From: a virus
Direction: 5' to 3' (one strand)
Length of the DNA stretch: 64,000 bases
Virus record (IMG/VR): IMGVR_UViG_3300028197_001952
Coordinates: 1 to 64,000 of that record
The position numbers and the translations under genes are program-made. Below, piece after piece: positions 990 through 44,871 of this stretch. The notes beneath the pieces were generated by a model. The model was not told the origin of the DNA. It did no database searches and saw nothing but the letters and a program-made list of their open reading frames with translations. How positions within the stretch are numbered: position 1 is the stretch's first letter; each line of letters starts with the position of its first letter.

Positions 990-1382
990 TTACCATTTTC
1001 TACAAGACCAATATCTTGCTTTATGTTTTGGTCCAGGTGAATCACAATTGTGTCTTGCTCTGAAAGCTTTTCTTGCATCTGGATTATTCTTTCTAATCGA
1101 CATTGTTTTTTCTCCTGATTTCTTTGCGGAGCTTCCACCATGTCCAAAGTTCACCTTTACTACATTTCCTTTGGGGTTATTAACATATACTTTAAACTTT
1201 TTAACATCACCTTGCATTGGTTTACCAAGTTTAACTGTCCTACCTTGATACTCAGCTTCGTTTATGTCAGATTTATATTCTTTCATAAATTCAGTAAATT
1301 CTTTTACATCTTGATAGTTCTCTACTGTGTATTCTTCACAGTATTCTTGACTTTCTACTAATAAATTATATAATGATATCAT
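990..1382 (-). CDS. Small prohead-core/internal-type virion protein with two predicted protease sites
   Basis: The product has 130 residues. It begins MISLYNLLVES and has two sites of the T4 prohead-protease type: LVE-S after residue 10 and INE-A after residue 42. The second site sits exactly before a compact basic domain starting AEYQGRTVKLGKPMQGD, which contains FKVYVNNPKGNVVKVNFG and ends in a Cys-rich tail (FRARHNC, GPKHKARYWSC). I recall similar C-terminal domains in marine T4-like phages near head genes, but cannot check. The N-terminus resembles that of the large polyprotein (KYLVE versus NLLVE). It lies between terminase and portal and is preceded by its own TATATTTATA box. Inference: a head-internal or core protein processed during maturation. 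Its molecular role is unknown. Confidence 0.75.
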   Translation of the reverse strand: MISLYNLLVESQEYCEEYTVENYQDVKEFTEFMKEYKSDINEAEYQGRTVKLGKPMQGDVKKFKVYVNNPKGNVVKVNFGHGGSSAKKSGEKTMSIRKNNPDARKAFRARHNCDSPGPKHKARYWSCRKW

Positions 1383-1413: not shown

Positions 1414-3003
1414 TTATTTAATTAACCACGTTAGGTCTTCGTTTGTATCACCAACCCTCATTTTCCATGGGTTTTCATCCATAGAATCGTTACCTCCAAA
1501 TCCACTAGCCAATCCCTCGGTAGCTTGTCCTATCCCACCTAATGCCTGTTTGGTTAAATCCACTCCCTCTTGTCTTAATCGAAGTGCAGTATCTCTAACC
1601 CATAATCCAATTGATAATGACATTGTTAAATCATCATTATATCCTTTCATTCCTTCTGCTCGATTGCCATTCCATATAAAAGTAAATAATTCTTCTATCA
1701 ATCTAGAAGAACGTATCGTTACTGATTTTTCTCTGATATATTGTTCCAATTTAGAAATAATCAAAGGTCTAGTTTTAGCTGTTGTAGAAAAACCAGGCAC
1801 CATTCCACGTTCTTCTGCTCTGTATTTATTATGTAATTGATTTTCTACATCAACATATTTTAAATCTTTACTCATATAAAATAAGTTCTGATATGACCTA
1901 TCTATTACTTGTTGAATTACTGCCCAACCAATATTTGCGTTTTCTATTACTAACAATGCTTGATTATATTCAGTTGAAAGAGATACCAAGAAATTTCCAA
2001 AATCTTTTGTATCTAATTTTCCTTTATATTCTGCAACTTGTGTTGATTCTTCAATATCAATCACATGACATGCAGAATAATCTCCTCCATCTCCACGAGC
2101 AACATCCGCTACTACCATATAAGATTTTGTATAGTTTGGATATTCCCATTTCCATAGGTTTCCATCAAATCCAGTTTTTTCAATTGGTTCTTGTACATAT
2201 GTTTCTTTATAAAACATTAAAAGTTGAGGATCTATTACTGTATCACCAGAAGAAACAAAATCACAATCACATTCTTGTGCTGCTCCTTTTGGTCCTAATA
2301 AAACCTCCTGCTCATCTCTCCATGATTGGTCTCTTTCAGGATGAACACTCCAATGTAATCTAATTGTATTGAATGTATTTGTTTCATCTTCTGCACCTAC
2401 CCAAGTTTTGTGAAAGAAATTTCCTACACCATTTGGAGTTGATAAGATAATTGCGTTACCACCCGTTGATAATGTAGATTGGGATGATACCCATATATCT
2501 TCAATCTTATCAATAAAAGCTGCTTCATCAAATACCAAAAGGGATAGTGCTTCAGAACGACCAGCATCTCCTGCTGCAGAAGTTGCTTTTATCTGAGAAC
2601 CATTCGAGTATCTTAAGGATAGTTTGTTATCCTCTACTGTGTTTTGTTTTAACCACGATGGTAAGTACTGATTCATTACACGAACCTTCGTTACAAGGTT
2701 CTTAGCAACTTCTTGTTTGGTTGCAATTACTAATACGTTAAAATCTTGATTGAATAACATTTTCCAAAGTGAAAATCCAGCAGTTAAGGTAGAGATACCT
2801 GTTTGTCTGGATTTAAGGATGATGTTGTATCTATGTTCTGCGAATTGGTCTAAAGTTCTTTCTTGAAATTCATATAAATGAAATGGAATCTTACCACGAA
2901 CTGGATGTTGAATCATACAATACTTTTTCATAAAGTAGATTGGATCTCCAGCACATTTCTGATATTCAAGTTTTATTATATCCTTGAGTGATTGTTTAGC
3001 CAT
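1414..3003 (-). CDS. 17: Terminase large subunit, T4 gp17-like
   Basis: The product has 529 residues, slightly shorter than T4 gp17 (610). Its N-terminal ATPase has a Walker A-like SRQTGIST at 65-72, with Ile where a canonical P-loop has Lys, a variation I recall from other phage terminases. Walker B is LLVFDEAAFI at about 155-164. The C-terminal RNase H-like nuclease shows VVADVARGDGGDYSACHVID near 300-320 and the late acidic motif NDDLTMSL near 460. It pumps DNA into the prohead through the portal and cuts concatemers. The gene follows the 234-residue membrane protein by two bases and lies two genes before the portal. No small terminase subunit is recognisable nearby. Confidence 0.95.
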   Translation of the reverse strand: MAKQSLKDIIKLEYQKCAGDPIYFMKKYCMIQHPVRGKIPFHLYEFQERTLDQFAEHRYNIILKSRQTGISTLTAGFSLWKMLFNQDFNVLVIATKQEVAKNLVTKVRVMNQYLPSWLKQNTVEDNKLSLRYSNGSQIKATSAAGDAGRSEALSLLVFDEAAFIDKIEDIWVSSQSTLSTGGNAIILSTPNGVGNFFHKTWVGAEDETNTFNTIRLHWSVHPERDQSWRDEQEVLLGPKGAAQECDCDFVSSGDTVIDPQLLMFYKETYVQEPIEKTGFDGNLWKWEYPNYTKSYMVVADVARGDGGDYSACHVIDIEESTQVAEYKGKLDTKDFGNFLVSLSTEYNQALLVIENANIGWAVIQQVIDRSYQNLFYMSKDLKYVDVENQLHNKYRAEERGMVPGFSTTAKTRPLIISKLEQYIREKSVTIRSSRLIEELFTFIWNGNRAEGMKGYNDDLTMSLSIGLWVRDTALRLRQEGVDLTKQALGGIGQATEGLASGFGGNDSMDENPWKMRVGDTNEDLTWLIK

Positions 3004-4411: not shown

Positions 4412-7400
4412 TTAGAAGAAAATACCGAGTATCTGATTTACAGATGCAAACGTTCCTGTTAACTTAAAGGTATTACCACCATAAACAAATACAATACCTT
4501 CATTTGGTACAATTTTCTTAGAACCACCAATAGATTGTAATCTACCAAGTTCTAATTTAAGTTTTTCTATCTTTTTTGGGTCACCTGATTTCTTAACATC
4601 TTTGATTGTCTTATCAATTCGTTTCTTTATATCACGAACTGCCTTATCAGGATTAACTGTTAGTGCAGATGAGGTAAACTCTAACACTTCTGCACCCAAA
4701 CCTAAGAATATTTGTTCAAACTTCATTAAGTTATTCTTACCAATCTTCTTTTGGTCATCTTTATCTGTTTTCTTAGCCCATTCTAATGTTTTTTCATCAG
4801 TAATGTTCTTTTTATCCAATCTAAACTTCTTATCAAAGAATGCCCATCTCTTAACTAACCCCATTTTGGTTTTATTATCAAGTGATGTGGGTGAATTCTT
4901 ATCAACCCATTGTGACCACCATGCTTGATGGTAATCAGCAACACCATCGGTATCCTTTAAACTAAATTCTTTCTGTAATTTAGATATCTGTGATGAGTAT
5001 TTGGATTTACTCTTACTTAAACTTTGTGATTTGGGTAAATTAACTACAGGTGGTCCTTGAATAGTGTAATTATCTTGTACATCTTTGTTTACTTGTTTAA
5101 TCATACCAGCTAATATTCTAGCTGCATCACCATTCTCTCCAATTGCGATTCCATCCATATTAAATTCCATAGTTCCATGAAATACCAATAATGCTTGTCC
5201 ATAAGGAATCACATTAACTGATGTTGGGTATATTACCTCAAGATTCATGAAACATGCACCTTGTTTGAATACTTTATCTCTTTGTTTTTCAGATAATGAT
5301 TTAATAGAATCTGAAAGGTCTTTCATTGCAAAGTTATATGCTTTTTCTAATTCACCTCTACCAGCAAATTTATCAGCAACTGCTTTAATATCTAAAGCAT
5401 TCTCACCTTTGTTCTTTAAGTGTCCTTTATTTCTTGCTGCTACTAATCTTCCATCTCTCCATGAAATAGCTAGTGCTTGGCCATCTGTTTTTTCTCTTGT
5501 GAACTCTAATGTACCTTCTAAAGCACGATTTACGATATCTTTAAGTTGTCCAAAGGTTAAATTGATATCAGTATCAAATGGATGAGACATATGCCCATAC
5601 GCACCACCTTCTTGAAGTAATTTAGATTCATTTATGTTTTCGTTGATTAGTTGTTGTGGTGTTTTAGTGTTTGGTATAAACATTTCAACTAACTTATTAT
5701 CAATATCACTTATTAACTGTTCTATTTCATTCATAAACTTTTCTTTTTCCTTATTTTTTATCCACACTCCCATTTCAGGTCCTTTAATATCAGATGGTAC
5801 ATCTTTTCCGCCAACAGATAATTTAAACTTTATGAATTTTTTCATATCCTTACCTATAATTTTACCAAACTTAATAATTTGTTCATCAGAAAGTGAAGTT
5901 TTATTTTGTAGTTTCTTAAATATTACAATTTCTTCTGATTTGAAGTGCTGTAGTGATACTAAAAATACAATATTATTTCTCTCATCATTGGTATAAGTTA
6001 ATTTGTTTAATTGTTTTCCTAATACAGATGGAGCATTCTTCTTAAGTAGTGATGAAATGAATAGAATATAATCATTATCCTTGATATAAGGTTTAGATAT
6101 CTTAAGATTTGGGAATATTAGTGAAGTAAATCCAATCTTATCATTCAACTCCATATACTTTTTAGTATCTTTAGCTGATTTAATTGATTTTATCACTTCA
6201 TCTCTCACTCTTTCATAACTAACTCCTTTTAGTGATGGATCCTTTTGTAATGCATCAAGTAATTCTTTATCTAAGTTTCCACCCAATCTTGCTTGGAATC
6301 TTAGAGCTCTTAATTTTCTCAATGGGTCTTCATCGAATCTCTCTGATGCCTTACCAACTGTTCTGATGTTTTTCTTTTTTAAATCTTTTATACCACCAAC
6401 TAAATCTACAATCTCTTTTCTATCTATATCATAAAACAAAGCATTGATAGTTAAATCTCTTCTTTTTACATCACCTTCAATATCTGTATAGTCAACAGCG
6501 GAAGGTCTTCTACCTTTACCAATATCTTTTCTAAATGTTGCAATCTCATGTCCACCAACTATTACAACTCCAAATGATTTTCCAACTTCAACGGTTTTCA
6601 TTCCTAAATCTTTTGCAATCTTTAACACCTCATCTGGTTTTGCATCTGTTGCTAAATCAAAATCCTTTGGTGATTTACCAAGTATCGCATCTCTTACTGC
6701 ACCACCCACCACATAAAGTTTCTTACCATTCTTTTTAAAAGCTTTTTGGATTTTAATAATATCAGATGGAACTTTAAGTTTCAATGTATTCTCACCCAAT
6801 CTTTGCAATCCTGCAGGTGGTGGTGTTAGTGGGTCATAACCAAAACATCTATTTCTATAATCTTGTTCTGATTCATTTGGTAATCTTTTACATTGTTCAT
6901 CTAAACCACTTCTATCGTGTTTAGAGAATTTACCTAATTTATCGAATGCTCTGAATGATTTTAGTTTATTTACTTTTTTAGGTGTCATTACAGATAGTTG
7001 TTTATATCTCATATGGTTTTTAACAATGTAAAATACATTTGCTGGATTACCACCAACGGATTCTATAAACTTTTTATACTTCTTTACTAAAGATGCAGAT
7101 ACTTTCTCATGTCCAAAGTGTGTAATGTGTCCTTTCTTTGGATGAATACCAGCAGTTTCATCTTTTCCTATATCATGGAACATTGCTGCAATTGCAATAT
7201 CAATATCATCTTCTTTGATTGAACGATTTACAACTACGATTGTGTGTTTAAGTACATTACCTTCAGGATGTTTATCTACTCTTTGACCGAAGTTCTTTAG
7301 ATTGTAAACTCTTTTTTGTAAATCCGAAGGCATCTTTTTGAATAAAGATTTGAAATCTGTGATTCCTAAATCTTTTAATCCTTCTTTGATTGGTTCATAT

Positions 7401-9973
7401 CCTCTTTTCTTAGTATCTTTTTCTTTGTTTTGATGTCCAGGTTTTTTACCATCATCATCAAAATCAATTGTATCTGGTTCAGCCATTGAACCTCTTTTTG
7501 CATATGATGAATATGTGTGATGTTTATTGAAATCTTTTTCAGCTTCTGATGATGGTTTACTAATCTTTACGCCTTTAAACTTATCTGTTACCTTAGTTGG
7601 TAAAGATTCTTTTAAGTTTGTTATCTTACTTGTTTTTTTCCAAGCCTTTTTATCAAATATAATATCATCCTGTACTAACAGTATCATTAATGCTCTACCA
7701 AACTTTAATTTATCTTTAATGTGAGTAAATTCTTTATTATCTTTTCTAGCCCACTTATACCATAATGCTGATAGAGTTAAAAACATCTTACCACCATTAT
7801 CTTTATTTTTTATAAGTTCTCTTTTGAACATACTTCTATTTTTGTATGCATATTTTTTAAAATCTAAATACACAAACTCATTAGGAGTATTCATAGGAAT
7901 GGGTCTACCTTCTTTTACAGTATTGTATTGATACTCTTTATTGGAATCTGCAGATTTTCTATAATCTTTATTTCTTTTATCGAACCTTTTCATATCTTCA
8001 GGTCCAGCATATCCTATCATTAGTTCATTGAATGTAGTTTTTTTAATTATCTTGCCTCTGATTGCCTCTTTGTGTACTTCCCTTTTCTGTTTAGTAGTAA
8101 GTTTATGATAATCAGGACCAAACATCTTATGTGCAATTACATCTAACATTTGAATCACTTTAACACCTCTAGTAACTTCCTTTTTACCTTGTGGATGTGC
8201 ATTTGTTGGTGAATCTTCATTCTTTTTTTCAAATTTTTCAACTTCCTTTGCACGTAATGCTGGTAAAAATCTAAATTTTGCTCTTTTTCTTACTCTACCT
8301 TTTTTTCTCACCACATTTTTATGAACTACTTGAGTTTGTGCAATAGATAAATCAGCTTTCTTAATACCAGGATATAATTCTTCGGAGAATTCAGCATAAA
8401 CTTGTCTGTATGCCATCTTGTAAGCAATCTTCTTAAGTTTAGAAAGAGGTTTTCTACGTTTCATTGTTCTTGCTCTTCTTCTAGCAATTTCCTTACCCTT
8501 CCCTGCCATTGCTGCTTTTCTTCTCAATCTATCAGCAGGTCGCATCTTTCCTCGTTCATCGAGTTCTTCATTCAAACCCATCTTCTCTCTCCACGAATCA
8601 AATGCATCATAATCATATTCTTGTTGTTGAGAATCCCATCCACATGAATGACATAAATACTTTTCACTATCATCAGATTCTATTTCCCATTGATGATTAC
8701 ACTTTTCACACTTTACTTCTGTTCCTGCAAGTTCAGCAATAAATCCTTCTTTTATCATTCTGAAGTTTACTACTTTTCTACCATTGATTGTTGGCATTCC
8801 ATGTTCATCTGTACCGATAGTTTTAATAACTGTTTTCTTATTCTTAAATCTACCAGTTAAAATAGTGTCTCCAACACTTACAGGTAATGTAATTGCTTCT
8901 TTTAATGAATTTTCAAATTCATCTTGTGATTTTTTATCACCTTTTTGAGAATCTAATGATTGTTCTTTTTCATCTTTATTAGTTTCCAATCCTTTTACTA
9001 TAGAATATCCTACTAACGATGCTTTTCTTGTTACGTGTTTGAACCATTTAGAATAAGCATCACTTGAATAGATATCTACTTGGTTAGTTGCAGTTTGTGT
9101 ACCAAGTACACCTGCTGGAAATGGAGTTACTGCTTTAACAGGACCATTTGGATATTCTGGATGTTCGTAATAATCTTCCAATTCCTTGGTAGTTATCATA
9201 TTTACAATTTCATATCCTATTTTTGCAGCTCGTTTTGCATTGATACGAGAAAATACTTCATAGTTTGGAAAAAATATATTTGGCCCATCATCTGATTGAC
9301 CGATTCCTACTGCAGAAGATTCATTTATCATCCATTCTTCAATTCTTTCTTTTGAAATGAAAATACCTTCGTTTAATTTATCAGTAATCATTTTAAAGAT
9401 ACCTGAATTAAACTTTCCATAAGCTCGTTTCTTAAAGAAATCTTTTTTATGATCATCAGAACCATTTGATAATCCATTTCTTACTTCAGTACCACTTACT
9501 GCACCACCAGACATTGGAGCTGCATAAACATAACCCCTATCTCTATATCCTTCCGATGGGTCTCCTTTGTATGTTTGAAAATATTTTCCACTATCAGGTC
9601 TTAATCTACTCTTATCTTTCTCACCAACAACAGTTACAAATGCAGTTGTTTCTTCATCGAACTTTTTAAGAATTTCTGTGGGTTTGTATGGGTCTCTAAC
9701 TTTATGTATTTTGGATTTTGGAATTCCAAACATAGTAGTCATAATTTTCACCTTCTCTTTGAAGTTAAAAGGTGATTTAGGTAATTGTACCTTATCAGAT
9801 GTACCAACATAAACGTTATCCTTACCGAACTTTTTTACAAGGTGTTGGTAAGTTCCATAGTGTCCTTTATGCATAGGTTGAAATCTACCTACATAAATAA
9901 CTACGGTCTTTTTAATAGGATTATCATCCTCAAGTAGTATTTGCTCTACTAAGTATTTTGAAAGTTCGCTCAT
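4412..9973 (-). CDS. Multi-enzyme polyprotein: NMNAT-like, Zn ribbon, HD, CCA-adding enzyme, ligase
   Basis: The product has 1853 residues. In order: an NMN-adenylyltransferase/cytidylyltransferase-like domain (GRFQPMHKGH at 29-38; SGTEVR at 160-165); an unassigned domain (219-330); a small beta domain (361-408, VGDTILTGRF); a zinc ribbon (C422xxC425, C441xxC444); a Lys/Arg-rich region (475-650); an unassigned part (690-789); an HD domain (H910, H933-D934, H955, H987); a CCA-adding enzyme (GGAVRD 1090-1095, DFD 1104-1106, RRDLTINA 1171-1178, EDPLRKLRALRF 1215-1226); and a covalent nucleotidyltransferase/ligase domain (KTDG 1495-1498, EGIV 1825-1828, FKLTG 1836-1840). Sites of the type (I/L)xE-(G/A/S) follow residues 202, 218, 359, 409, 789, 864, 1449 and 1455, all in linkers. 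Inference: packaged, processed enzymes acting on RNA ends and NAD. Confidence 0.85.
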   Translation of the reverse strand: MSELSKYLVEQILLEDDNPIKKTVVIYVGRFQPMHKGHYGTYQHLVKKFGKDNVYVGTSDKVQLPKSPFNFKEKVKIMTTMFGIPKSKIHKVRDPYKPTEILKKFDEETTAFVTVVGEKDKSRLRPDSGKYFQTYKGDPSEGYRDRGYVYAAPMSGGAVSGTEVRNGLSNGSDDHKKDFFKKRAYGKFNSGIFKMITDKLNEGIFISKERIEEWMINESSAVGIGQSDDGPNIFFPNYEVFSRINAKRAAKIGYEIVNMITTKELEDYYEHPEYPNGPVKAVTPFPAGVLGTQTATNQVDIYSSDAYSKWFKHVTRKASLVGYSIVKGLETNKDEKEQSLDSQKGDKKSQDEFENSLKEAITLPVSVGDTILTGRFKNKKTVIKTIGTDEHGMPTINGRKVVNFRMIKEGFIAELAGTEVKCEKCNHQWEIESDDSEKYLCHSCGWDSQQQEYDYDAFDSWREKMGLNEELDERGKMRPADRLRRKAAMAGKGKEIARRRARTMKRRKPLSKLKKIAYKMAYRQVYAEFSEELYPGIKKADLSIAQTQVVHKNVVRKKGRVRKRAKFRFLPALRAKEVEKFEKKNEDSPTNAHPQGKKEVTRGVKVIQMLDVIAHKMFGPDYHKLTTKQKREVHKEAIRGKIIKKTTFNELMIGYAGPEDMKRFDKRNKDYRKSADSNKEYQYNTVKEGRPIPMNTPNEFVYLDFKKYAYKNRSMFKRELIKNKDNGGKMFLTLSALWYKWARKDNKEFTHIKDKLKFGRALMILLVQDDIIFDKKAWKKTSKITNLKESLPTKVTDKFKGVKISKPSSEAEKDFNKHHTYSSYAKRGSMAEPDTIDFDDDGKKPGHQNKEKDTKKRGYEPIKEGLKDLGITDFKSLFKKMPSDLQKRVYNLKNFGQRVDKHPEGNVLKHTIVVVNRSIKEDDIDIAIAAMFHDIGKDETAGIHPKKGHITHFGHEKVSASLVKKYKKFIESVGGNPANVFYIVKNHMRYKQLSVMTPKKVNKLKSFRAFDKLGKFSKHDRSGLDEQCKRLPNESEQDYRNRCFGYDPLTPPPAGLQRLGENTLKLKVPSDIIKIQKAFKKNGKKLYVVGGAVRDAILGKSPKDFDLATDAKPDEVLKIAKDLGMKTVEVGKSFGVVIVGGHEIATFRKDIGKGRRPSAVDYTDIEGDVKRRDLTINALFYDIDRKEIVDLVGGIKDLKKKNIRTVGKASERFDEDPLRKLRALRFQARLGGNLDKELLDALQKDPSLKGVSYERVRDEVIKSIKSAKDTKKYMELNDKIGFTSLIFPNLKISKPYIKDNDYILFISSLLKKNAPSVLGKQLNKLTYTNDERNNIVFLVSLQHFKSEEIVIFKKLQNKTSLSDEQIIKFGKIIGKDMKKFIKFKLSVGGKDVPSDIKGPEMGVWIKNKEKEKFMNEIEQLISDIDNKLVEMFIPNTKTPQQLINENINESKLLQEGGAYGHMSHPFDTDINLTFGQLKDIVNRALEGTLEFTREKTDGQALAISWRDGRLVAARNKGHLKNKGENALDIKAVADKFAGRGELEKAYNFAMKDLSDSIKSLSEKQRDKVFKQGACFMNLEVIYPTSVNVIPYGQALLVFHGTMEFNMDGIAIGENGDAARILAGMIKQVNKDVQDNYTIQGPPVVNLPKSQSLSKSKSKYSSQISKLQKEFSLKDTDGVADYHQAWWSQWVDKNSPTSLDNKTKMGLVKRWAFFDKKFRLDKKNITDEKTLEWAKKTDKDDQKKIGKNNLMKFEQIFLGLGAEVLEFTSSALTVNPDKAVRDIKKRIDKTIKDVKKSGDPKKIEKLKLELGRLQSIGGSKKIVPNEGIVFVYGGNTFKLTGTFASVNQILGIFF

Positions 9974-11435: not shown

Positions 11436-12169
11436 AACTTATTAATATTAGTTTGTAAATATTTTTTTATTTCAACATCATTCGTATATGGATAAATACG
11501 TTGTAAATTAATTATTTGTAACAATTCATATTTTTCTATTGGATAGTTTTCTACCAACCAATCATCAATATATGATAATCCAAGTTTTATTTTAGATAAA
11601 TCAGTTACACTACTTACCATATTTAAAGACCAGTACAGATGTGTATCTTGTCTTAATTTTACTAAGTCCATAGTTGGTGATTCAATATATGAATCTAAAA
11701 AATCTATTAGATATATTTCATCTGTAAATATCATGTTTGAAAGAGTCATATCTCCATGCGCCAATCCTACCTTTATTCGTATATCAATCTCATTATCTAG
11801 TAGTGGTAACAAAGTATCACCATTTGGTAATGATTTTAATTTATTCTTTAGTATCTGTATTGGTAACGTGGTTTCTCCAATAATACGCTCTTTGAAGTAT
11901 CCATCGAGTTTACGTATTAATCCATCTAAATCTCGTTTAGTTGCTAAAGTAAAGAATTGGGAAAATGATTCTCCTTGGATATATTCCATTAAGAAGGAAT
12001 CATTATTTATTTCAATTACGTTAGGTGATTTAAAGTAATTAGATTTAAATTCTTTTTGTTTTAGTGCAGACTTTACTAACCTAATATCACCAGTTGATGC
12101 AGATTTAGTTACTACGTTTTCATGTAGTTTTAAATTATAATTACTATGTCCTTTTACTTTAAAATCCAC
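11420..12169 (-). CDS. Small-molecule kinase, APH/choline-kinase family
   Basis: The product has 249 residues. The kinase core is visible: LAHGDMTLSNMIF at about 136-148 (catalytic HGD, H138 to D140, with N145) and the metal-binding LIDFLDS near 154-160. The family phosphorylates choline, aminoglycosides or sugars. It sits directly before a nucleotidyltransferase gene, so it probably makes the phosphate that enzyme activates. The start is a GTG at 12169 overlapping the aminotransferase gene by 16 bases. The next ATG is about 60 codons in and would lose the N-lobe, so GTG is preferred. Confidence 0.75.
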   Translation of the reverse strand: MDFKVKGHSNYNLKLHENVVTKSASTGDIRLVKSALKQKEFKSNYFKSPNVIEINNDSFLMEYIQGESFSQFFTLATKRDLDGLIRKLDGYFKERIIGETTLPIQILKNKLKSLPNGDTLLPLLDNEIDIRIKVGLAHGDMTLSNMIFTDEIYLIDFLDSYIESPTMDLVKLRQDTHLYWSLNMVSSVTDLSKIKLGLSYIDDWLVENYPIEKYELLQIINLQRIYPYTNDVEIKKYLQTNINKLCEIL

Positions 12170-13140
12170 TTGTAATCCTTTAAACTATCTGTAATACACA
12201 ATCTTACCCATTCATCTCCTCTATCAGGTATTATACAATTCTTTCTAAATATAATATCCTCTGGTAATGGTGGTAAATCACTTTCTTTTATATGTAACCA
12301 ATTTGCTTGAGATGGAATTGATTTAATACCTCTATTATATAGTTCTATCATAAGTTTACCTCTCACAGATTTTACTGATTCAATATATTCATCAGCAAAC
12401 TCTTTATTTTTTATCAATGTTTCTACCCACTTATATGTTTGACCTGTTATTTCGTACATATCTCTAAATTGTACCATCTTTTCAATATTCTGTTTTTGAG
12501 AAAATACACATCCAAATCTAGTTCCTGCAGAACCATATGCTTTTGATAAAGTTCTTGTAACATATAAATTGGGATATTTATCAATCAAATCAATACAACT
12601 TTCTTCATCTGAAAATTCTATATATGCTTCATCAACTAAAGTTGGTTGTCCTATATCTAATATCTTAATCAAATCCTCTCTACAAATCACATCACCAATC
12701 GGTGAAGATGGATTTGATAATACTACAATAGAATTACTTGTAATTTTATCAAGGAATTCTAATATTGGAAATTTTATTACATGATATGGAACTTTTACTA
12801 TTTTTGTATCGTGCATTTGTCCATAAACATCGTACATTGGAAATGATGGCTCAGTAACTACTAATCGTTTTTTTCCCCAAAACCAATGTCGGTTTGAGTT
12901 TGCTTCAAAAAAGTATTTTATACATCTGTCAGAACCAAATCCCATAAGAAAATGTTCATATCCATAAAACTCAGTTAATGCTGGTTTTAATTTATTTACA
13001 TTAGGATAAAATTTAATATCTTCTTCTGTTAATGATTTTTTATAATCTTTAAATACCTTTCCCCAAGATGAATTTCTTTCTGCAGAATGTAATCTTAGTT
13101 TATCATGTGGTACTATAGGGTGAAATTTTCTTTTAATCAT
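12154..13140 (-). CDS. PLP-dependent aminotransferase, HisC-like (fold type I)
   Basis: The product has 328 residues. It shows the fold-type I pattern of the HisC/class I-II family: VLSNPSSPIGDVI, LVDEAYIEFSDEE (the Asp that holds PLP) and TLSKAYGSAGTRFGC (the Lys that binds PLP), ending in DRGDEWVRLCI. Such enzymes move an amino group to a keto acid or phosphate ester. In this cluster, next to a NeuB-like synthase and a CMP-transferase, it may aminate a sugar intermediate, but the substrate is unknown. It overlaps the NeuB-like gene by four bases, so translation is probably coupled. Confidence 0.8.
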   Translation of the reverse strand: MIKRKFHPIVPHDKLRLHSAERNSSWGKVFKDYKKSLTEEDIKFYPNVNKLKPALTEFYGYEHFLMGFGSDRCIKYFFEANSNRHWFWGKKRLVVTEPSFPMYDVYGQMHDTKIVKVPYHVIKFPILEFLDKITSNSIVVLSNPSSPIGDVICREDLIKILDIGQPTLVDEAYIEFSDEESCIDLIDKYPNLYVTRTLSKAYGSAGTRFGCVFSQKQNIEKMVQFRDMYEITGQTYKWVETLIKNKEFADEYIESVKSVRGKLMIELYNRGIKSIPSQANWLHIKESDLPPLPEDIIFRKNCIIPDRGDEWVRLCITDSLKDYKWILK

Positions 13141-13970
13141 TTGAATCTTCCTTTATAATAATCGTGATTATGTTCTTGTTCTTTATTGAATTTATTAAGT
13201 TCAATATACTGATTCTTCTGACTTAACATTGAGAATCTTTTTATTTCCGATAACATAGATGGTGTCATAGATACTTTTCCATCTCTAGTTTCATCTATTT
13301 CTAATATTGTAAAATGTCTTTCTAGTACATCTATACCTTGGAATATAGCTAATTTTGCAGTAAGTAAATTATCTTCATGTGGATTAGAATGGTCACTATA
13401 ACCAACCTTATCTAAACCAAAATAAAATCTATAAAAGTCTATATTTTGTAAGTTGGCTTTTTCTAAAGGAGTTGGGTAAACACACGTACATCCCAATAAA
13501 TAAAAGTCTATATCCATCTCTTTTAGGTTAGATACGGTTTTACTTATTTCATCTAAAGTTAAACTTGATGCAGAAAAGTATAATGTTTTGAACTTTATAT
13601 CTTTTAATAATTTACCATATCCAAACGCAGGTATTGAGTATCCAGATAGTTTCAAATTATCATAACCCAATGAATTAAAATATTCTGTGTGTCTTGGTGT
13701 GAATAATGTAGTCATAGATTCTACATCATGTTCCTTACATTTATCTATAAAGAATTTTTCATCTTCCCATGATAATTCAATACCCTTTAATCTTTGGTAC
13801 TCTTCCTTATATGGTCTAAACTCTTCATACTCTTCTCTCTTAGTAAACGTATCTGCTTTAATGGATTGTATTTTTAATATATCACTATCCACAGCTGCAA
13901 ACTCTATCATAGATTCTAAAATAGCTCTATCACCATTGTGATTTTGACATAACTCTGAAATTATTTTCAT
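13137..13970 (-). CDS. NeuB-like nonulosonate synthase (catalytic barrel only)
   Basis: The product has 277 residues. It matches the NeuB TIM-barrel signatures: ISELCQNHNGD (4-14), LKIQSIKADTF, LGCTCVYPTP, VGYSDHSNP and LERHFTI. The family condenses phosphoenolpyruvate with an N-acyl sugar to make sialic, legionaminic or pseudaminic acids. The usual protein is near 345 residues with a C-terminal SAF/antifreeze-like domain, and that domain is absent here. The gene is three bases after the dehydrogenase-like gene in operon order and is followed by the aminotransferase. A CMP-transferase sits four genes away, which supports a nonulosonate-like product. Confidence 0.85.
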   Translation of the reverse strand: MKIISELCQNHNGDRAILESMIEFAAVDSDILKIQSIKADTFTKREEYEEFRPYKEEYQRLKGIELSWEDEKFFIDKCKEHDVESMTTLFTPRHTEYFNSLGYDNLKLSGYSIPAFGYGKLLKDIKFKTLYFSASSLTLDEISKTVSNLKEMDIDFYLLGCTCVYPTPLEKANLQNIDFYRFYFGLDKVGYSDHSNPHEDNLLTAKLAIFQGIDVLERHFTILEIDETRDGKVSMTPSMLSEIKRFSMLSQKNQYIELNKFNKEQEHNHDYYKGRFK

Positions 13971-36375: not shown

Positions 36376-39300
36376 TTAACCACAATATAGAAAACCATAT
36401 ACTCCTTCTGATTTTCCTTCTGAATCAAATGTTACATCTTCCATTGCTTTTGCAACAGTATAAGAACATTGTGATTGTCTTTCTTCGTACTGAGGATTAT
36501 TATCTCCATCAAATGAAGTAATTACAAATTCTGATGGTTGTTTCATTAAATATCCTTCAGTATCAGAAGAACATAATAAATCACCTCTTGAAACATTCCC
36601 ACCTTGGTTACATACTTTAAATCCTTCTAAATCTTTAGAGTAACTATCCCCAATCGATGCAACTTTCCAAATTGTTTTTGTATCTCTCTCATTTTCTGGT
36701 AAAGTATTACCAAATGAATCCTTATATTCATCGATAGAACCACTTTCAGTTGTTTTCCATAAAATACCAAGAACATCAGTATCTTTTAAACTTGTTGTTT
36801 TTATTATTTGATTATTAGAATCGAATTTAACTAAATCACCTACTGATATACTTACACTATTTAATTTTAAATACTGGTGACCTCCTGTAAATTGTTGTAT
36901 TAAACCAATGTCAGTTGCGTTGGATGCAACTGCTGTTCTAGTTGTAGCAATCGAGTCTGAACCAAATCTAGTTGATTCTTTAAATTTCGCGCCATTTCCA
37001 TCAATTTCAAAAATAGTACTAAATGCACTACTACGTGTACCATCATAAAATTTAATACTAGATTTTATCCTCAAACCATCAGTTGCATCAGGGGAGAATA
37101 CATCACTAAAAGGTGAACCACCAACTTTAGCAGTAGTACCAAATGATGCAACACCTGAAGAACTTATATTAAAATCTGGTGCTGATATGAATCCACCATT
37201 ATTAATTGTCATACCAGTAGTTGTATTAGCTCCATCACTCCCACCATCTAGATTGGAGGTCGATAATGCACTTGCACTAAGTGTCCATCCACCAATTGTT
37301 CCTCCGGTTGATGTTATATTACCAGTAGAAGCAACTTTGAATACAGGCGTTTGTCCACCGAACTCTATTGTACCATTAGATAAATCAATTCTACCAAGTG
37401 CAACACCTTTATCATCAACATTAGCACTACTAATAGTTCCTGTTGTTATTGCACTACCATTGATTGCAGTTGTATTAAAAGAACCACTTGCTCCATCACT
37501 CAGAGTAGAACCGCTGAACGTTACTAATCCGCTAAATCCTATTGCTTGAGTAGCTGAACCAAATGAAACACTTGCTACTCCACTTCCAGCTGAAGTTTCA
37601 GTTGCGGTATAATCAGCGTACCAATATACATTAGAATTACCCGCTTCATATAATGGTGTTGCTGTACTCCAATTACTTGTAAGTCCTGTAAAGGTATTTG
37701 GAAATGTCATTGATGTTGCACTTACAATACCTGGACTAGTAGCCGAAGAAAGGGTGTAATTAACTCTACCTGTTGCGGTTCTTAATCCATTATCACCAGG
37801 ATCACCATCATCACCAGGATCTCCATCATCTCCTTTTGCTCCATCTTCTGCAAAGTTAGCAAATAACGCAGGTGTTGAGAAATTTCCAAACGTTCCATTT
37901 ACAGAAGTTCTTTGACTAACCCATACATATTTTTGAGTAGCTGAAGTTGTACCCGGAGTAGCAGCCCAACTATCTGTTCCGATTGCAGTTGGTGTATTTG
38001 GAGCTGATGCTGAATTATTAAGTAAGTATGCAAATTGAATACCACCACCTTCTTCACCAGCTTTTGATTTACTTAATGTTTGTGTTTTAGTGAAACTGAA
38101 ACTAGTTCCATTTAAAGTCTTACCACTAATAGTATATGTGATGGTTACAGAATCAGTTCCATCTACCATTGCTGAATGATTTGCAACAAGTGCATTATTT
38201 GATGAATCTGTTATACCACCAATTGTAATTGTTGTAGATGGAGATTGTGCCGCTGAAACTGTAAAATGACCAGCAGTTGTACCACTTGCATCATAATCCA
38301 ATGCAGTAGCTCCTTCGAATACACTTATTGTAGTTCCACTACCACCATAATCAGAAACAACACCTGCATCAGAAGCAGGTAATACATGAGCTTCGTTGGA
38401 TACTATTGCTGCTACATTTCCACTTCCTACATCTAATTGTTTTAAAGTAAAACTATCTGCAACACTACCATCAACCGAAGCTGCGGTATAAGTTACAACC
38501 ATTCCATCTACAAAGTTTGCACTTGTAACAGTTGCAGAACCACCACTTGAACTAACTGTTTCATCTGTTAGTGTTCCAGCTGTTTCGGTGAACGCACCAT
38601 TTGCCGTTAAGTTTTGTCCATTTGCGGTTAATACAATTGATGATGGAGTTAGTGTACCATCTTGTGCTTTTGTAAATATATTAGATGTTCCACTAAGTAC
38701 TACTGTTTTAGCATTATCTCCAGCAACTCCTTCTACTCCTTCTTTTGCTTTACTTATTGCTTGTGTTTTAGTGAAACTGAAACTAGTTCCATTTAAAGTC
38801 TTACCACTAATAGTATATGTTAATACAACATTAGCTACAGAATTTGACATTGCTGAGTGGTCACCTACAACAGCGAAATCTGTATCTTGTGTTATAGTTC
38901 CAATTGTTAATGTTGAACTTGGAGATTGTGTAACAGAAACATCCCAATGACCGGCAGTTGTTCCTGCTTCATCATAATCTAAAGCAGTTGCTCCCTCGAA
39001 TACACTTATTGTAGTCCCACTACCTGCGTAGGAAGAAACAACACCTGCTGCATTTGCTGGAAGTACATGAGCTTCATTCGCTAATATTGCGGTTACATTT
39101 CCACTACCTTCATCTAATTGGTTTAATGTTACAGTATCTGCAATTGAGCTATCATCAGAATGTGCAGTATATGTTACAGTCATTCCATCTACGAAGTTTG
39201 CACTTGTTACAGTTGCAGAACCACCAGAAGTGTTTTCTGTTTTATTTGTAAGTGTTACTGAAGGTGAAGTGGTAAATGAACCTTTTTTAGTTAAGTTTTG

Positions 39301-42300
39301 ACCATTTGCAGTTATTACGATTGATGTTGGACTTAAAACACCAGCTCTATTTTTTCTAAATATTGGTGATGCTGAAGTTAAGGTTATTGTTTTGGCATTT
39401 GTACCAACTACTCCTTCCCTTGCTTTTGAAAAACTTTGAGTTGTTGTACGTGTGAACGCTTCCCCTCCAAGTCTTTTTCCTGATATTGTATAAGTTAAAA
39501 CAACAGAATCAACACTCATTGCTGATGGAGCTGATATTGTTGCAAGTGTTGTTCCGTTACCGCTAATCGTTCCTTCTGTTAGTCCCCCAACATCTTCTAT
39601 AGTAATACTAAACTCTCCGTTTGTAGGTGTTCCTGTTGTAAACGTGAGAATATTACCTCCTTCATACACTTCTATTAGAGTTCCCCCTCCAGTAAAAGAA
39701 CTTATGGCTCCAGTTGCAGTTGCAGGATATGTGTGAGATGAATTAGAATTAGTTATTTGTATTGCATCTTGTCCTGCTCTACCCTTGGTAATACTTTGTT
39801 GAAATGAACCACTAAATAATTCTCCATTTAGTTTTTTACCTGCATATGGATATGAAATATTAACTGCATCAGTATCAAGTGCCATTGCCGTATGGTCTGC
39901 AACTACTGCGTGTTGTCCACCATCAGTTATAGTACCAACTGTTACCTTACCAGTAGGAGTAACTACGGTTGTTAATAAATCCCACTCACCATCTCCGGTT
40001 CCTGATGGTACATATGAAAGTAATTGTGCTCCTTCAAATATACTTAAATCTGCTCCACTATTAGAAAAATCTGTAACTGAACCGGATGCATCTGCTGGAA
40101 ACATATGTGATTGGTTTGTATTTAAAACAGTCAAACCATCTGTTCCTGTATCTACCCTAACGATTGATACATCATCTTGAAATGTAGTACCATTTTCAGA
40201 ACCACTTACACTAATTACGGTTTGAACCGTATCTGACATTTCTGAAGATGCTATGGTTCGTGTTGCACCACTTCCACCTAATGTAATACCATTTGTTGCA
40301 TGAAACGATAATGATCCTGAAATATTATCTTTAGCTGCAGTAATGGTTATACTAGATGGAGTAATATTACCATCTTTTCCTTTTATAAAAACTTGTCCTG
40401 ATGATTGTAGTGAAACCGTTTTTGCACTAACCCCATCTTCTCCATCAGAAATAATATACCAAGTTTCGTTAATTGTATTTTTTTGTTGAGTTCCTGGGTC
40501 TGTAAATACTGCAGTTACATTTATATCTTTGGATGCATAAGCATTTCCAAATGGTATATTTGTTGAATCACCATCTGCCGCTGTCATTACTATATGACCA
40601 TTTCCACTTTGTCCAGCAGCAGGACTTGCAATTGTTAAGTTATCTAAAGGGTCATTAAAACTAGGTGTAATTGTTGTGGATAATCTATACTCACTACCAG
40701 TTGTATCAAAAAATATTGCGGTTGCGGTTAAGGATGCTGGATCATATGATGAACTTCCTACCAATCTTCTTGTAACTTTACCATTAGATGCTACAAACGA
40801 ACCTCCACCAAGACCATCGGTAACATCTACCAATGCTATAGTATCAAGCAATGTTCCATCATCTTTTCGTAAATGATATGTTGCTTGTCCATTTATTGCA
40901 CTACTATTAAGAACTGGATTATAAGTTACTCCATTTCCACCATCACTTGTTCCTAATAATGAAGTAGTAAGAAGAGTACTTCCACTATAAATTTGAGCAT
41001 CTCCTTGAGAAGAACCACTCACATCAAATGAACCAGTTCCATCAATACCTTGTACTTGTAATTCTAAAGTAGCCGTAGGTATATGTGATCCCAACGAAGG
41101 TTTATTACTTCTTCCTGCATTTTTTATTTGTGTACCTCTTAATGGTCTAATAAAAAATGTTGGTTTTACATCTTCTCCAGGTTTTACAAATATAATACTT
41201 TCAGTATCCGATGCTATTTCTGTTGTATTATCAAGTGCCTCAGAAACACCAACCCTAAATGAAAGTGGTGTACTTATAAAATTAGCTGGTGGTGTAAATG
41301 TTGTAGTTTTACTATTAGCAGTAGTTCCATCAGAAAATGATGTTTCATCGGTAAAATGTGATCCTCCACCTGTAAATTTAAAATGTGCATTTCTAAAATT
41401 AGTAGAACTTGCAGATATAGTTACAGAAGATGGTGATGGGTTTGTTCCATTTGCATCATACATAATAGAATTATCACTAAATGATAAACCTACTTTTTTT
41501 GATGGTGAACCCTCTGAAGCAACCCCAACTAAAAAATTAATTGTTTTTCCTGTAAACTCAGTTCCTTCTGAATTTGTTAGAGATAATGTGATAACTCCAC
41601 TTACTGCAGTTCCAGATGTTGGTGTATTTGGAGTAATTGTTCCATTATTATTATTTGTTCCATTTGTTACACCAGTAATTTTAAATTTATTAGCAGTGAC
41701 TGTTCCTGTTGTGTGTGTGAAATCTGTAGAACCTTGGTTTACACTAACACTTACATTCGATGGTGTAGTAAATGTAAGAAAATCGTACTCAGAACTTACA
41801 TTTTGAGTTTGTGGATTTGCTATTATTGTTGTAATAGGTTTTGCTTCTCTAATACGAGATATACTTGCAACAATATTTTTAGTACCAGATGTTCCCTCAC
41901 CATCTGTAAAGTTTACTGGAATAGTAATGGTTTCTGTATCAGATAACATATCATCCGCAGTATCACTAAATGTAATAGTATTTGATGATACCGTTCCACT
42001 CAATCCTCCACTAAAAGTAGGAGTTGAAATTGAAGTAAATCTATTAGTTCCACCCTCTGTTGCTTTTACTTCAATAGTTTTAGGTGATTCAGAACCACTT
42101 CCTACTGAATTTGCATTTATTCCTTGTGATTGTAAGTTTACACTTACCTCTACATTTGGAACTGCTTTTTTAGATTTTGTATAAGATACAATTTTTTGAA
42201 ATGATTGGGATGTTGCATTATCACCTGCAAGATATTCTATGTTTAAACTTAATGAACCACTATCGTGTTGATTTGGAAATGCAGATATACCATACTCTGA

Positions 42301-44853
42301 TGTTGTTGGTGATGTCGATATTGCAGTTACATTTGTTTCTGTTATCGAAGTAATATCAAATGTGTTTTTATTTCTTCCTCCACTAATATCATCGTGTGTT
42401 ATTTGAGTACCACCGATAAACATTTGTACATTTCCTTTACTTGAACCGAAACCACCAGGTACATCTCCTGTTGATTTTGCTGGAAATGAAGTTGATTCAT
42501 TTGAAAGAACAAGTGAAACTGCATCAAAGTTTATAACAGGTGATATTGTTATCTCATCTGAAAATGGTAAATCAAATTGATCAGAACCAGTAAATGAATA
42601 TGTTGTTTCTGGAAATGATGAACCAGCGAATGATGAAGAATATGCTAAAGCTGATATTGTGTATGTATCAATACCTGTTCCATTATCAGTTACAGGTCCA
42701 ACTAATGGTGGAGCTCCACTTCCTGAGTTTACTTCAATTGGAGTTGATAATGAAAATAAGTTTTTACGTTGAGCTCTTATAGTTGCACTCTGTCCACCTG
42801 GTTTTGGTGAAAGAGTTGTTGGTTCATATATAAATTGATTTACATTTGATGTTACAATAAGTTGTGGTGCATTATCACCATCTTCTAATCTATATACGGT
42901 TTCAAATTCCGTCTGTTCTTCTAACGATGCAGTATAAACAATAGAACCTACTGTAATAGAATCATCACTACCACTAAAATCTGCAATTTTTATGATTGCA
43001 CCAGCTGGTGTTACATTTGTAAGAGTTCCAGGATAAGTACCGGTATATGATGATGGAATTATGTATGCACCATTTTCATCAAAGGCAGCTGATGCGTAAG
43101 TTACAGAACCTGTTAAGTTATTTCCACGAGTTTTAAATTGTATTTGTTGAAATGGTGGATTACCTATCGAACCACTTGTAAACCTAAATGCATTTCTATC
43201 AGATTCAAAAGTAAGTAGTTTATCACTTCCTGGGAAATCGTTACCACCTGTAAATGCTTTTGTTGTAGTTACATCAACAGGTATATAATTGTTATTTATA
43301 TCATAAAACTCAAATTTGAAATCAAATGTTTCTATTGCGAGTTTTCTTGGAATATCTTGTATTAGAGTAAATTCATCTGGTGAGAATGAAGTATCTTGTG
43401 CGTTCTTAAGAGATACATTAGAAATGTACCAATCACCACCATTTATATCAAATTTTAAAAAAGTATCTGCTGTAGTATCAGTTGCTAGTATATTTTGAGA
43501 TACGGTTTGTCTTGTATTGTATATATCAGAACCTTCTATTGTTAAAAAATTCTGTTCATAATTAGAACCACTAAAATATGCACGTATTGATGGAGTTCCC
43601 ACCGAACCACTTTTTAAAGTTCTGAAATTAAGAGTATATTCAACTCCACTTGATATTTCAAAACTACCACTTGTAGATAATGTTTGAATACCACCTTCAG
43701 ATTCATCATAATCTATTTTAACAGATGCATTTAATATATCCGAATTAATTGTAACAGGATGGTCATCAGATGAGGTTACCCAATAGTTACTTAAATTGGT
43801 TTCATCAAATCTACCATATGATAATTCAGTATCAGATGTTGTTGTTATATCTTTTAATAGTTCTGATGATTCTAGTTTGGATTCTTGTACAAATTGAAAA
43901 TCTCCAATTGTGTTTCTTGATTTTCTAAATACTTTTACTCTGGCAACATCACCAACAAATGTTTTTAGGTTATTGAAGTTTATTTTTGCAAAAGAACCTG
44001 TTAATGCAGAATCTGTTATTGTTTGTCCTTCTACGAATTCAAAGGTTGTTGTGTATGGATTTGGAAAGAAATCACTAACCGAACCATCACTTGAAGTAAA
44101 TGGAGTATCAACCATCACTTCCTTATTACTTAATACTTCAATTACATTTGAAGAGTAATTTAAAGAAGGAACTGAAATTGTATTATCATCTACCGAAGAT
44201 GTCCAATTAGTAATTCCATCCTCTATTTTTAATTTATAATTTACACCAGCTCTCCAATTAGATAAATCAGTTCCACTTGGTGGATTTTGTGATATACCTG
44301 ATAAACTACCTGTTTGTGTAATTTGGGGGATATTTTTTGTAAATATGGGTTTTACTAGTTCATCTACTTTTACTGTTGGTCTTCTGTAAAATCTAACAAT
44401 AGTTTCATTAGAAACGTTTTTATTTATCTGTATAGATTTTTCCCACTTTACATTATAAACACCTGCCCACTCATTTGGTATATTAACTATTTCACCAATA
44501 TCACTTAGATAGGTTTTTAATTCACCAAGAATGGTAATTTTACCAATACCAATAGATACATCATCATAAACATGTATTGCTATTAATTTAGAATTCCCTT
44601 CATAATATTCAGGAACTCCATCACCAGGCTCAAAATATATTGGATTACCATCCACATCAAGAATTTCTATCTTGATTTCAGTAGATTCCTTTAAGTGCTC
44701 AGAACCTTCAATTAAGAATCCATTCTTACCACCTGTTAAGGTTTCATTTAATTCTGTAATTCTAAAGTACTCTGAATTTGGTGACTCATCATCCTCAAAT
44801 ACTTGAAAATTTGATAAGTTCAGAAAAGGAGCGTATGATTTAATTATTGCCAT
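36376..44853 (-). CDS. Giant modular tail fibre / adhesin
   Basis: The product has about 2825 residues from the ATG at 44853; a TTG at 44871 is the only longer start. The N-terminal baseplate-attachment-like region starts MAIIKSYAPFLNLSNFQ. A very long Ser/Thr/Gly-rich shaft follows with Ig/cadherin-like units. Tandem copies of about 225 residues contain GSGTTISVFEGATALDYD and SIVLTANGQNLT. A short collagen-like stretch (GDDGDPGDDGDPGDNG) precedes the tip. The C-terminus carries a GDLVKFD and CNQGGNVSRGDLLCSS region like autocleaving chaperone tips and ends EGVYGFLYCG. It probably binds the host surface. A promoter box and a divergent regulator gene lie upstream, a GT-B gene downstream. Confidence 0.88.
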   Translation of the reverse strand: MAIIKSYAPFLNLSNFQVFEDDESPNSEYFRITELNETLTGGKNGFLIEGSEHLKESTEIKIEILDVDGNPIYFEPGDGVPEYYEGNSKLIAIHVYDDVSIGIGKITILGELKTYLSDIGEIVNIPNEWAGVYNVKWEKSIQINKNVSNETIVRFYRRPTVKVDELVKPIFTKNIPQITQTGSLSGISQNPPSGTDLSNWRAGVNYKLKIEDGITNWTSSVDDNTISVPSLNYSSNVIEVLSNKEVMVDTPFTSSDGSVSDFFPNPYTTTFEFVEGQTITDSALTGSFAKINFNNLKTFVGDVARVKVFRKSRNTIGDFQFVQESKLESSELLKDITTTSDTELSYGRFDETNLSNYWVTSSDDHPVTINSDILNASVKIDYDESEGGIQTLSTSGSFEISSGVEYTLNFRTLKSGSVGTPSIRAYFSGSNYEQNFLTIEGSDIYNTRQTVSQNILATDTTADTFLKFDINGGDWYISNVSLKNAQDTSFSPDEFTLIQDIPRKLAIETFDFKFEFYDINNNYIPVDVTTTKAFTGGNDFPGSDKLLTFESDRNAFRFTSGSIGNPPFQQIQFKTRGNNLTGSVTYASAAFDENGAYIIPSSYTGTYPGTLTNVTPAGAIIKIADFSGSDDSITVGSIVYTASLEEQTEFETVYRLEDGDNAPQLIVTSNVNQFIYEPTTLSPKPGGQSATIRAQRKNLFSLSTPIEVNSGSGAPPLVGPVTDNGTGIDTYTISALAYSSSFAGSSFPETTYSFTGSDQFDLPFSDEITISPVINFDAVSLVLSNESTSFPAKSTGDVPGGFGSSKGNVQMFIGGTQITHDDISGGRNKNTFDITSITETNVTAISTSPTTSEYGISAFPNQHDSGSLSLNIEYLAGDNATSQSFQKIVSYTKSKKAVPNVEVSVNLQSQGINANSVGSGSESPKTIEVKATEGGTNRFTSISTPTFSGGLSGTVSSNTITFSDTADDMLSDTETITIPVNFTDGEGTSGTKNIVASISRIREAKPITTIIANPQTQNVSSEYDFLTFTTPSNVSVSVNQGSTDFTHTTGTVTANKFKITGVTNGTNNNNGTITPNTPTSGTAVSGVITLSLTNSEGTEFTGKTINFLVGVASEGSPSKKVGLSFSDNSIMYDANGTNPSPSSVTISASSTNFRNAHFKFTGGGSHFTDETSFSDGTTANSKTTTFTPPANFISTPLSFRVGVSEALDNTTEIASDTESIIFVKPGEDVKPTFFIRPLRGTQIKNAGRSNKPSLGSHIPTATLELQVQGIDGTGSFDVSGSSQGDAQIYSGSTLLTTSLLGTSDGGNGVTYNPVLNSSAINGQATYHLRKDDGTLLDTIALVDVTDGLGGGSFVASNGKVTRRLVGSSSYDPASLTATAIFFDTTGSEYRLSTTITPSFNDPLDNLTIASPAAGQSGNGHIVMTAADGDSTNIPFGNAYASKDINVTAVFTDPGTQQKNTINETWYIISDGEDGVSAKTVSLQSSGQVFIKGKDGNITPSSITITAAKDNISGSLSFHATNGITLGGSGATRTIASSEMSDTVQTVISVSGSENGTTFQDDVSIVRVDTGTDGLTVLNTNQSHMFPADASGSVTDFSNSGADLSIFEGAQLLSYVPSGTGDGEWDLLTTVVTPTGKVTVGTITDGGQHAVVADHTAMALDTDAVNISYPYAGKKLNGELFSGSFQQSITKGRAGQDAIQITNSNSSHTYPATATGAISSFTGGGTLIEVYEGGNILTFTTGTPTNGEFSITIEDVGGLTEGTISGNGTTLATISAPSAMSVDSVVLTYTISGKRLGGEAFTRTTTQSFSKAREGVVGTNAKTITLTSASPIFRKNRAGVLSPTSIVITANGQNLTKKGSFTTSPSVTLTNKTENTSGGSATVTSANFVDGMTVTYTAHSDDSSIADTVTLNQLDEGSGNVTAILANEAHVLPANAAGVVSSYAGSGTTISVFEGATALDYDEAGTTAGHWDVSVTQSPSSTLTIGTITQDTDFAVVGDHSAMSNSVANVVLTYTISGKTLNGTSFSFTKTQAISKAKEGVEGVAGDNAKTVVLSGTSNIFTKAQDGTLTPSSIVLTANGQNLTANGAFTETAGTLTDETVSSSGGSATVTSANFVDGMVVTYTAASVDGSVADSFTLKQLDVGSGNVAAIVSNEAHVLPASDAGVVSDYGGSGTTISVFEGATALDYDASGTTAGHFTVSAAQSPSTTITIGGITDSSNNALVANHSAMVDGTDSVTITYTISGKTLNGTSFSFTKTQTLSKSKAGEEGGGIQFAYLLNNSASAPNTPTAIGTDSWAATPGTTSATQKYVWVSQRTSVNGTFGNFSTPALFANFAEDGAKGDDGDPGDDGDPGDNGLRTATGRVNYTLSSATSPGIVSATSMTFPNTFTGLTSNWSTATPLYEAGNSNVYWYADYTATETSAGSGVASVSFGSATQAIGFSGLVTFSGSTLSDGASGSFNTTAINGSAITTGTISSANVDDKGVALGRIDLSNGTIEFGGQTPVFKVASTGNITSTGGTIGGWTLSASALSTSNLDGGSDGANTTTGMTINNGGFISAPDFNISSSGVASFGTTAKVGGSPFSDVFSPDATDGLRIKSSIKFYDGTRSSAFSTIFEIDGNGAKFKESTRFGSDSIATTRTAVASNATDIGLIQQFTGGHQYLKLNSVSISVGDLVKFDSNNQIIKTTSLKDTDVLGILWKTTESGSIDEYKDSFGNTLPENERDTKTIWKVASIGDSYSKDLEGFKVCNQGGNVSRGDLLCSSDTEGYLMKQPSEFVITSFDGDNNPQYEERQSQCSYTVAKAMEDVTFDSEGKSEGVYGFLYCG
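37788..37850 (-). repeat. Collagen-like Gly-x-y run in the fibre
   Basis: This stretch encodes about six Gly-x-y triplets, GAKGDDGDPGDDGDPGDNG, with tandem GATCC-type codon repeats visible in the DNA. Such runs form triple helices in trimeric phage fibres and often sit before the tip domain, as here. Confidence 0.8.
38044..39412 (-). repeat. Two tandem ~680-bp units in the fibre shaft
   Basis: A 58-base segment at about 38081-38138 is repeated almost exactly at about 38763-38820, giving a unit of roughly 682 bases. The encoded units share TVTSANFVDGM, GSGTTISVFEGATALDYD, SAM and YTISGKTLNGTSFSFTKTQ. More diverged copies continue to about 40400. Such copies recombine easily and change fibre length. 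Confidence 0.8.
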
Positions 44854-44871
44854 AGAAATATATCTTTCCAA

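Follow-up and report, generated by a model that had tools for sequence, protein, structure and literature searches.

The source sequence is a 77.6-kb record of an uncultured virus, a T4-like marine phage, of which positions 1-64,000 (64,000 nucleotides) constitute the window analysed here. The gene calls give the order terL, small protein, portal, such that a gene encoding a protein of 130 amino acids is flanked by those for the large terminase subunit and for a portal protein that is truncated by the end of the contig (Table 1). Beyond the portal gene, past the contig end, one would expect the genes for prohead protease, scaffold and capsid. The window also encodes a multi-domain polyprotein and a gene cluster (10160-35130) that resembles surface-sugar biosynthesis and includes a NeuB-type synthase (13137-13970, E=1e-31) and an aminotransferase (12154-13140). 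A sulfotransferase gene (49766-50344; Sulfotransfer_2, E=5e-14) is located fairly near structural genes. Two ORFs of 2831 and 1798 amino acids (36376-44871 and 53864-59260, respectively) have no Pfam match at E<=1e-4 and possibly encode tail or adhesion proteins. Contig G000 carries, at about 70572-76424 (L001), genes for a carbamoyltransferase, a peptide deformylase and an S-adenosylmethionine synthetase.

Table 1. Coordinates, within the window, of the small protein, the polyprotein, their proposed parts and the flanking genes.
Feature	Position	Strand	Basis
Portal protein gp20, truncated by contig end	3..956	-	Portal_T4 match in relative L176
Putative small internal-protein precursor, 130 aa	990..1382	-	ORF; flanked by terL and portal
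Leader MISLYNLLVE, residues 1-10, proposed capsid-targeting sequence	1353..1382	-	register of T4 MKTYQEFIAE
Proposed prohead-protease site 1, LVE-S, residues 8-11	1350..1361	-	sequence
Putative acidic pro-segment, residues 11-42, net charge -7	1257..1352	-	charge computed
Proposed prohead-protease site 2, INE-A, residues 40-43	1254..1265	-	conservation in relatives
Predicted mature basic domain, residues 43-130, net charge +17, FRARHNC...ARYWSC motif (phrog_7595)	993..1256	-	
Terminase large subunit, T4 type	1414..3003	-	Terminase_6N E=4e-13; phrog_2
Multi-domain polyprotein, 1853 aa	4412..9973	-	ORF and domain matches
Leader MSELSKYLVE, residues 1-10, proposed capsid-targeting sequence; then LLE15	9944..9973	-	T4 register
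Module-boundary site LNE-G, residues 200-203	9365..9376	-	kept 26/33; swap boundary 202
Site IKE-G, residues 407-410, ahead of Zn-ribbon module	8744..8755	-	kept 22/34
Module-boundary site IKE-G, residues 862-865, ahead of HD module	7379..7390	-	kept 13/18; swap boundary 862
Module-boundary site LQE-G, residues 1453-1456, ahead of C-terminal module	5606..5617	-	kept 43/44, P2 varies; swap boundary near 1445-1452

The small protein begins with MISLYNLLVESQEYCEEY and the polyprotein (1853 amino acids) with MSELSKYLVEQILLED. A preliminary description of the locus had listed these N-termini, an INE-A motif at residues 40-43 of the small protein, and an (I/L)xE site within the first 15 residues of either protein. 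The ORF translations agree: the small protein has LVE-S, and the polyprotein has LVE (residues 8-10) followed by Q and LLE (residues 13-15) followed by D. Motifs of the form [IL]xE[AGS] occur only twice in the small protein, as LVE-S (8-11) and INE-A (40-43). Its sole clear family match is phrog_7595, which spans residues 40-130 and has no named function; Pfam gave no match above the cut-off, and the NCBIfam and PDB sequence searches returned nothing convincing. Also the described position of INE-A, exactly before the folded domain, corresponds to the extent of phrog_7595 and to stand-alone homologues that begin at residue 43. The AlphaFold confidence is low (pLDDT 49 for the full protein and 62 for the mature domain) and a fold search with the domain gave no match at E<=0.001; we therefore claim neither a fold nor a biochemical function for this domain.

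The second site was compared in 96 non-identical relatives. P1 is glutamate in 96/96, P3 is I, V, M or L in 95 and F in one, P1' is alanine in 94 and glycine in 2, and P2 takes ten different residues. The P3 residue is often V or M, which is outside the L/I rule of T4. In a wider sample, the motif is found in 84 of the 93 classified members with an upstream stretch, and three of the nine members without it are effectively leaderless; a few relatives have an unrelated leader or no recognisable site. The domain also exists as a separate protein beginning with Met-Ala in the phages Aegir, CRP-902, HTVC202P, CRP-3 and HTVC106P. For the three that align through site 2 (Aegir, CRP-902 and HTVC202P), the Met corresponds to Glu42 and the Ala to Ala43. 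We consider this Met-Ala start of leaderless homologues at the predicted cut the strongest observation for site 2. No S77 protease was detected in these five phages (the Aegir record comprises only 18 kb), which leaves room for another protease in them. In the S77-bearing phages HTVC008M, C48C1, immuto and Melnitz the sequence ahead of the domain reads LEE-A, LTE-A, LDE-G and MME-S, respectively, and the small protein of C48C1 starts with MKKFKQYIDE-G, very close to the T4 leader. Averaged over the 96 relatives, the 32 residues ahead of site 2 have a charge of -7 and the domain a charge of +17.6, suggesting that the pro-segment may mask the charge of the domain before maturation.

A leader and two sites would also be compatible with a small protein that docks as a component of the scaffold core, similar to gp67 and gp68 of T4, and is subsequently cut up and expelled. 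The gene sits among head genes, the segment ahead of site 2 is acidic and helical, and the core proteins of T4 are likewise cut at L/I-x-E (PMC9026906). However, the 88-residue domain is basic and strongly conserved, contains no further [IL]xE[AGS] site and is also found alone in phages without detectable S77. These properties suggest that the domain has a function of its own, and we regard a role as expelled core protein as unlikely.

Along the polyprotein, residues 26-113 form an NMN-adenylyltransferase-like domain, followed by a Zn ribbon at about 417-447, an HD domain at 917-992 and a CCA/polyA nucleotidyltransferase at 1083-1316; the C-terminal module has no Pfam family match. Its Pfam, PHROG and NCBIfam matches include no MuF, MPTase, ART, PBECR or similar polyvalent domain. 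In most relatives the first site reads LVE-S; it is LVE-Q here and LVD or LVN in a few, hence the first cut may be at Glu15 instead. Further internal sites, in addition to those given in Table 1, are poorly kept, namely 359 (mostly LNEN) as well as 688 and 789 (both weak). Relatives differ by rearrangements, insertions and deletions of modules, and the boundaries of these exchanges tend to coincide with candidate sites. Strong alignment boundaries are located within 10 residues of [ILVM]xE[AGS] in 125 of 324 cases, compared to 28 by circular shifting; in a thinned set of 19 dissimilar polyproteins the numbers are 32 of 81 and 6.6 (maximum 15 in 2000). The test rests on the strong and the thinned boundaries, the version with all boundaries being noisy. 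Among the control motifs, evaluated on the thinned set, the Asp and Lys variants gave no excess and the reversed motif gave 10 versus 4.4.

We note that boundaries would also come to lie at conserved linkers if recombination took place in shared linker DNA. The leader might then dock the protein as proposed, with the internal motifs serving as flexible linkers for recombination in a polyprotein that works uncut; the weak excess of the reversed motif is in line with this explanation. The main excess, however, is specific to [ILVM]xE[AGS] and absent for the Asp and Lys variants, the P1 glutamate is kept while P2 varies, and the leaderless homologues begin exactly at the site. An uncut polyprotein is thus rather improbable.

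With respect to the leader, two of the 65 gene calls on the own contig fit a loose leader pattern, versus an expectation of 0.9 from shuffling (p about 0.25). This pair is no proof by itself, and the test therefore needs relatives. Small protein, polyprotein and portal served as queries in scans of viral contigs; the resulting loci, about 220, gave gene calls for 1961 distinct proteins whose starts are intact. Within the interval from portal to gp23, 146 of 578 proteins fit the loose pattern, compared to 10 by shuffling residues 2-20, and outside this interval 39 of 1112, with an expectation of also about 10; both counts include related sequences. Coverage-filtered clustering on the part behind the leader gave 43 majority-tagged clusters out of 396 (shuffle mean 1.9, maximum 6); looser clustering had chained families together. 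The number of independent tagged families is below 43, because some small clusters are split relatives of the polyprotein or of p456, a protein encoded after gp21. Many majority-tagged clusters are singletons unrelated to either of the two. In the related contigs, most tagged genes lie in the interval from portal to major capsid gene, next to an S77 (gp21-type) prohead protease.

In T4, the internal proteins IPII and IPIII both begin with MKTYQEFIAEA (read from NC_000866); the preliminary description had noted that T4 internal proteins carry a short N-terminal capsid-targeting peptide ending in an (I/L)xE cut. Mutants of T4 indicate that targeting depends mainly on residues 4 and 7 and processing on residues 8 and 10; Asp at position 10 blocks processing and still allows targeting (PMC9026906). 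Both leaders match this register, the small protein with L4, L7, L8 and E10, the polyprotein with L4, Y7, L8 and E10. The consensus of the small-protein leader among relatives is MISLxxLLxE. Glu10 is present in 42 of 74 distinct leaders of the small protein, 20 of 52 of the polyprotein, 19 of 34 of p456 and 13 of 34 of p250; Glu at positions 8, 9 or 11 is almost absent, except for 12 p250 leaders that are one residue shorter. Near-identical peptides (MIKLKDILNE, MIKLTDLLNE, MISLKNLLKE) head unrelated genes of relatives, and contig L153 has a run of neighbouring genes with a leader of the type MIKLKDIL-x-E. For distant T4-like relatives, the small-protein leader follows MKx[FY]xx[FY] in 22 of 48 distinct leaders, compared to 7 of 195 other ORFs of the same loci; in these leaders Glu10 is often lost and site 2 alone is kept.

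Ordinary amphipathic N-termini together with frequent I/LxE tripeptides might in principle produce two such leaders by chance, and the count on the own contig would be compatible with this. The register-specific excess in relatives and the recurrence of the same tag on unrelated genes already contradict such an origin, which we consider scarcely credible. At the level of sequence, the likeness of the two leaders is significant across relatives and far above chance. The capsid-targeting signal that the preliminary description had proposed for both proteins is likewise supported, as judged by the T4 register, the tag on unrelated head-locus proteins and the conserved sites. The check it had suggested, an alignment of the N-termini of head-linked genes in relatives, yielded the same 10-residue register, with S77 in the same locus.

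Two further N-terminal sequences were observed in the relatives. Three genes in L153 (477-14292), beside those with MIKLKDIL-x-E, share another leader, FNIKNWQDKxLxE, on otherwise unrelated proteins and form a candidate second leader class. In L176 (13126-13629) and its relatives, the protein encoded before gp21 (p167 family) has a repeated N-terminus, MKITREALKNIVKE, that may be a third class.

The protease itself is visible in relatives. Contig L176, with a portal 95% identical to the one here, combines portal, Peptidase_S77 (E=9e-27) and gp23 in one locus. The gp23 proteins of relatives keep a hydrophobic-x-E-(A/S) motif, mostly LDE-A, at the aligned position that we take to be where T4 gp23 is cut. 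A Peptidase_S77 search of the 77.6-kb contig gave no match, with controls also without match and the contig ending in the portal gene; the source phage's own gp21 is unseen because the contig ends first. The T4 enzyme, gp21, cuts after L/I-x-E (PMC9026906). The location between terL and portal, as well as the very basic domain, could also be expected of a DNA-packaging factor that acts with the adjacent terminase, for example one replacing the small terminase subunit, in which case the leader would be incidental. We consider this very improbable, given that relatives such as HTVC008M, C48C1 and immuto have the domain apart from terL, and others have it inside longer multi-domain chains.

Comparison of the relatives establishes the leader pattern, the conserved sites, the swaps at these sites and the protease in relatives. 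The explanation we favour, with a probability of roughly 0.78, is that both proteins are packaged into the head as precursors and are cut by gp21, the small one giving rise to a basic internal protein and the large one to enzyme modules. Docking of both precursors to the scaffold core, as in T4, would be mediated by the N-terminal leader, which is about 10 residues long and has hydrophobic residues 4 and 7; the gp21-type prohead protease would then cleave after (I/L/V/M)-x-Glu. For the small protein, cuts after LVE10 and INE42 would release 32 residues as an acidic pro-segment and the remaining 88 as a very basic domain; the latter, beginning with Ala43, would stay with the DNA in the head and probably be delivered into the host. 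For the polyprotein, the leader would be removed and the chain cut between modules, such that one tagged chain could carry several enzymes into the head (NMN-adenylyltransferase-like, HD, CCA-nucleotidyltransferase and others). Packaging, cutting, ejection and charge masking are steps that we infer. Packaging in the head appears highly probable for the small protein; for the polyprotein it is probable and less certain, because of LVE-Q here and Asp/Asn10 in a few relatives.

More generally, the balance tips slightly towards a plug-in mode of head loading in a large group of uncultured marine T4-like phages, based on a short reusable leader and gp21-type sites. Modules would be supplied either as separate tagged genes or as one polyprotein that is cut into an injected enzyme cocktail, and the site would mark the swap points. 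If true, the leader would allow head-entering proteins, which perhaps also reach the host, to be recognised from sequence alone in phages that are mostly uncultivable, and many 'hypothetical' genes could then be tested as candidates for injected proteins. Maturation of a phage polyprotein by the capsid protease would be an unusual route for the joint delivery of several enzymes. For cyanophages and marine T4-like phages, no description of capsid-targeting leaders turned up in the open literature, a collection without most subscription journals and without bioRxiv preprints; as evidence of novelty this is weak. Virion proteomics for Flavobacterium phage immuto or Microcystis phage Mel-JY01 was likewise not found in the literature searched.

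Several known systems share parts of the proposed arrangement. The internal proteins IPI-IPIII of T4 have the same 10-residue leader (positions 4, 7, 8 and 10), an (I/L)xE cut and a basic mature protein, with the corresponding S77 present in the relatives studied here. In contrast to these, the small protein has a predicted second cut after an acidic pro-segment, its relatives also have V or M at P3, and its mature domain showed no relation to the T4 internal proteins in the Pfam and PHROG searches. Alt of T4, a packaged enzyme that gp21 cuts at both ends, shares with the polyprotein a short leader at the N-terminus of an enzyme precursor, as well as gp21-type sites; however, Alt is a single enzyme, whereas the polyprotein consists of several enzyme modules with sites between them. 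The polyvalent proteins of phages and conjugative elements are predicted to be injected multi-domain proteins (Iyer et al. 2017, PMC5512222). They resemble the polyprotein as multi-domain chains that are mosaic between phages, are encoded near portal and terminase and have predicted injection. The domains of the polyprotein, unlike theirs, are nucleotide and RNA enzymes, and the proposed cutting is by the prohead protease, not by an internal peptidase. Head proteins of SPN3US and phiKZ undergo several cuts after x-x-Glu in one propeptide, and gp53 and gp54 are diverged head proteins with identical N-termini (PMC5694885, PMC10052503); these giant phages differ in the motif (AxE or SxE) and in the mostly long propeptides. 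The principle of the T4 internal proteins and of Alt is known, and what look to be new variants of it are the two-step small precursor and the tagged, modular and putatively cuttable polyprotein.
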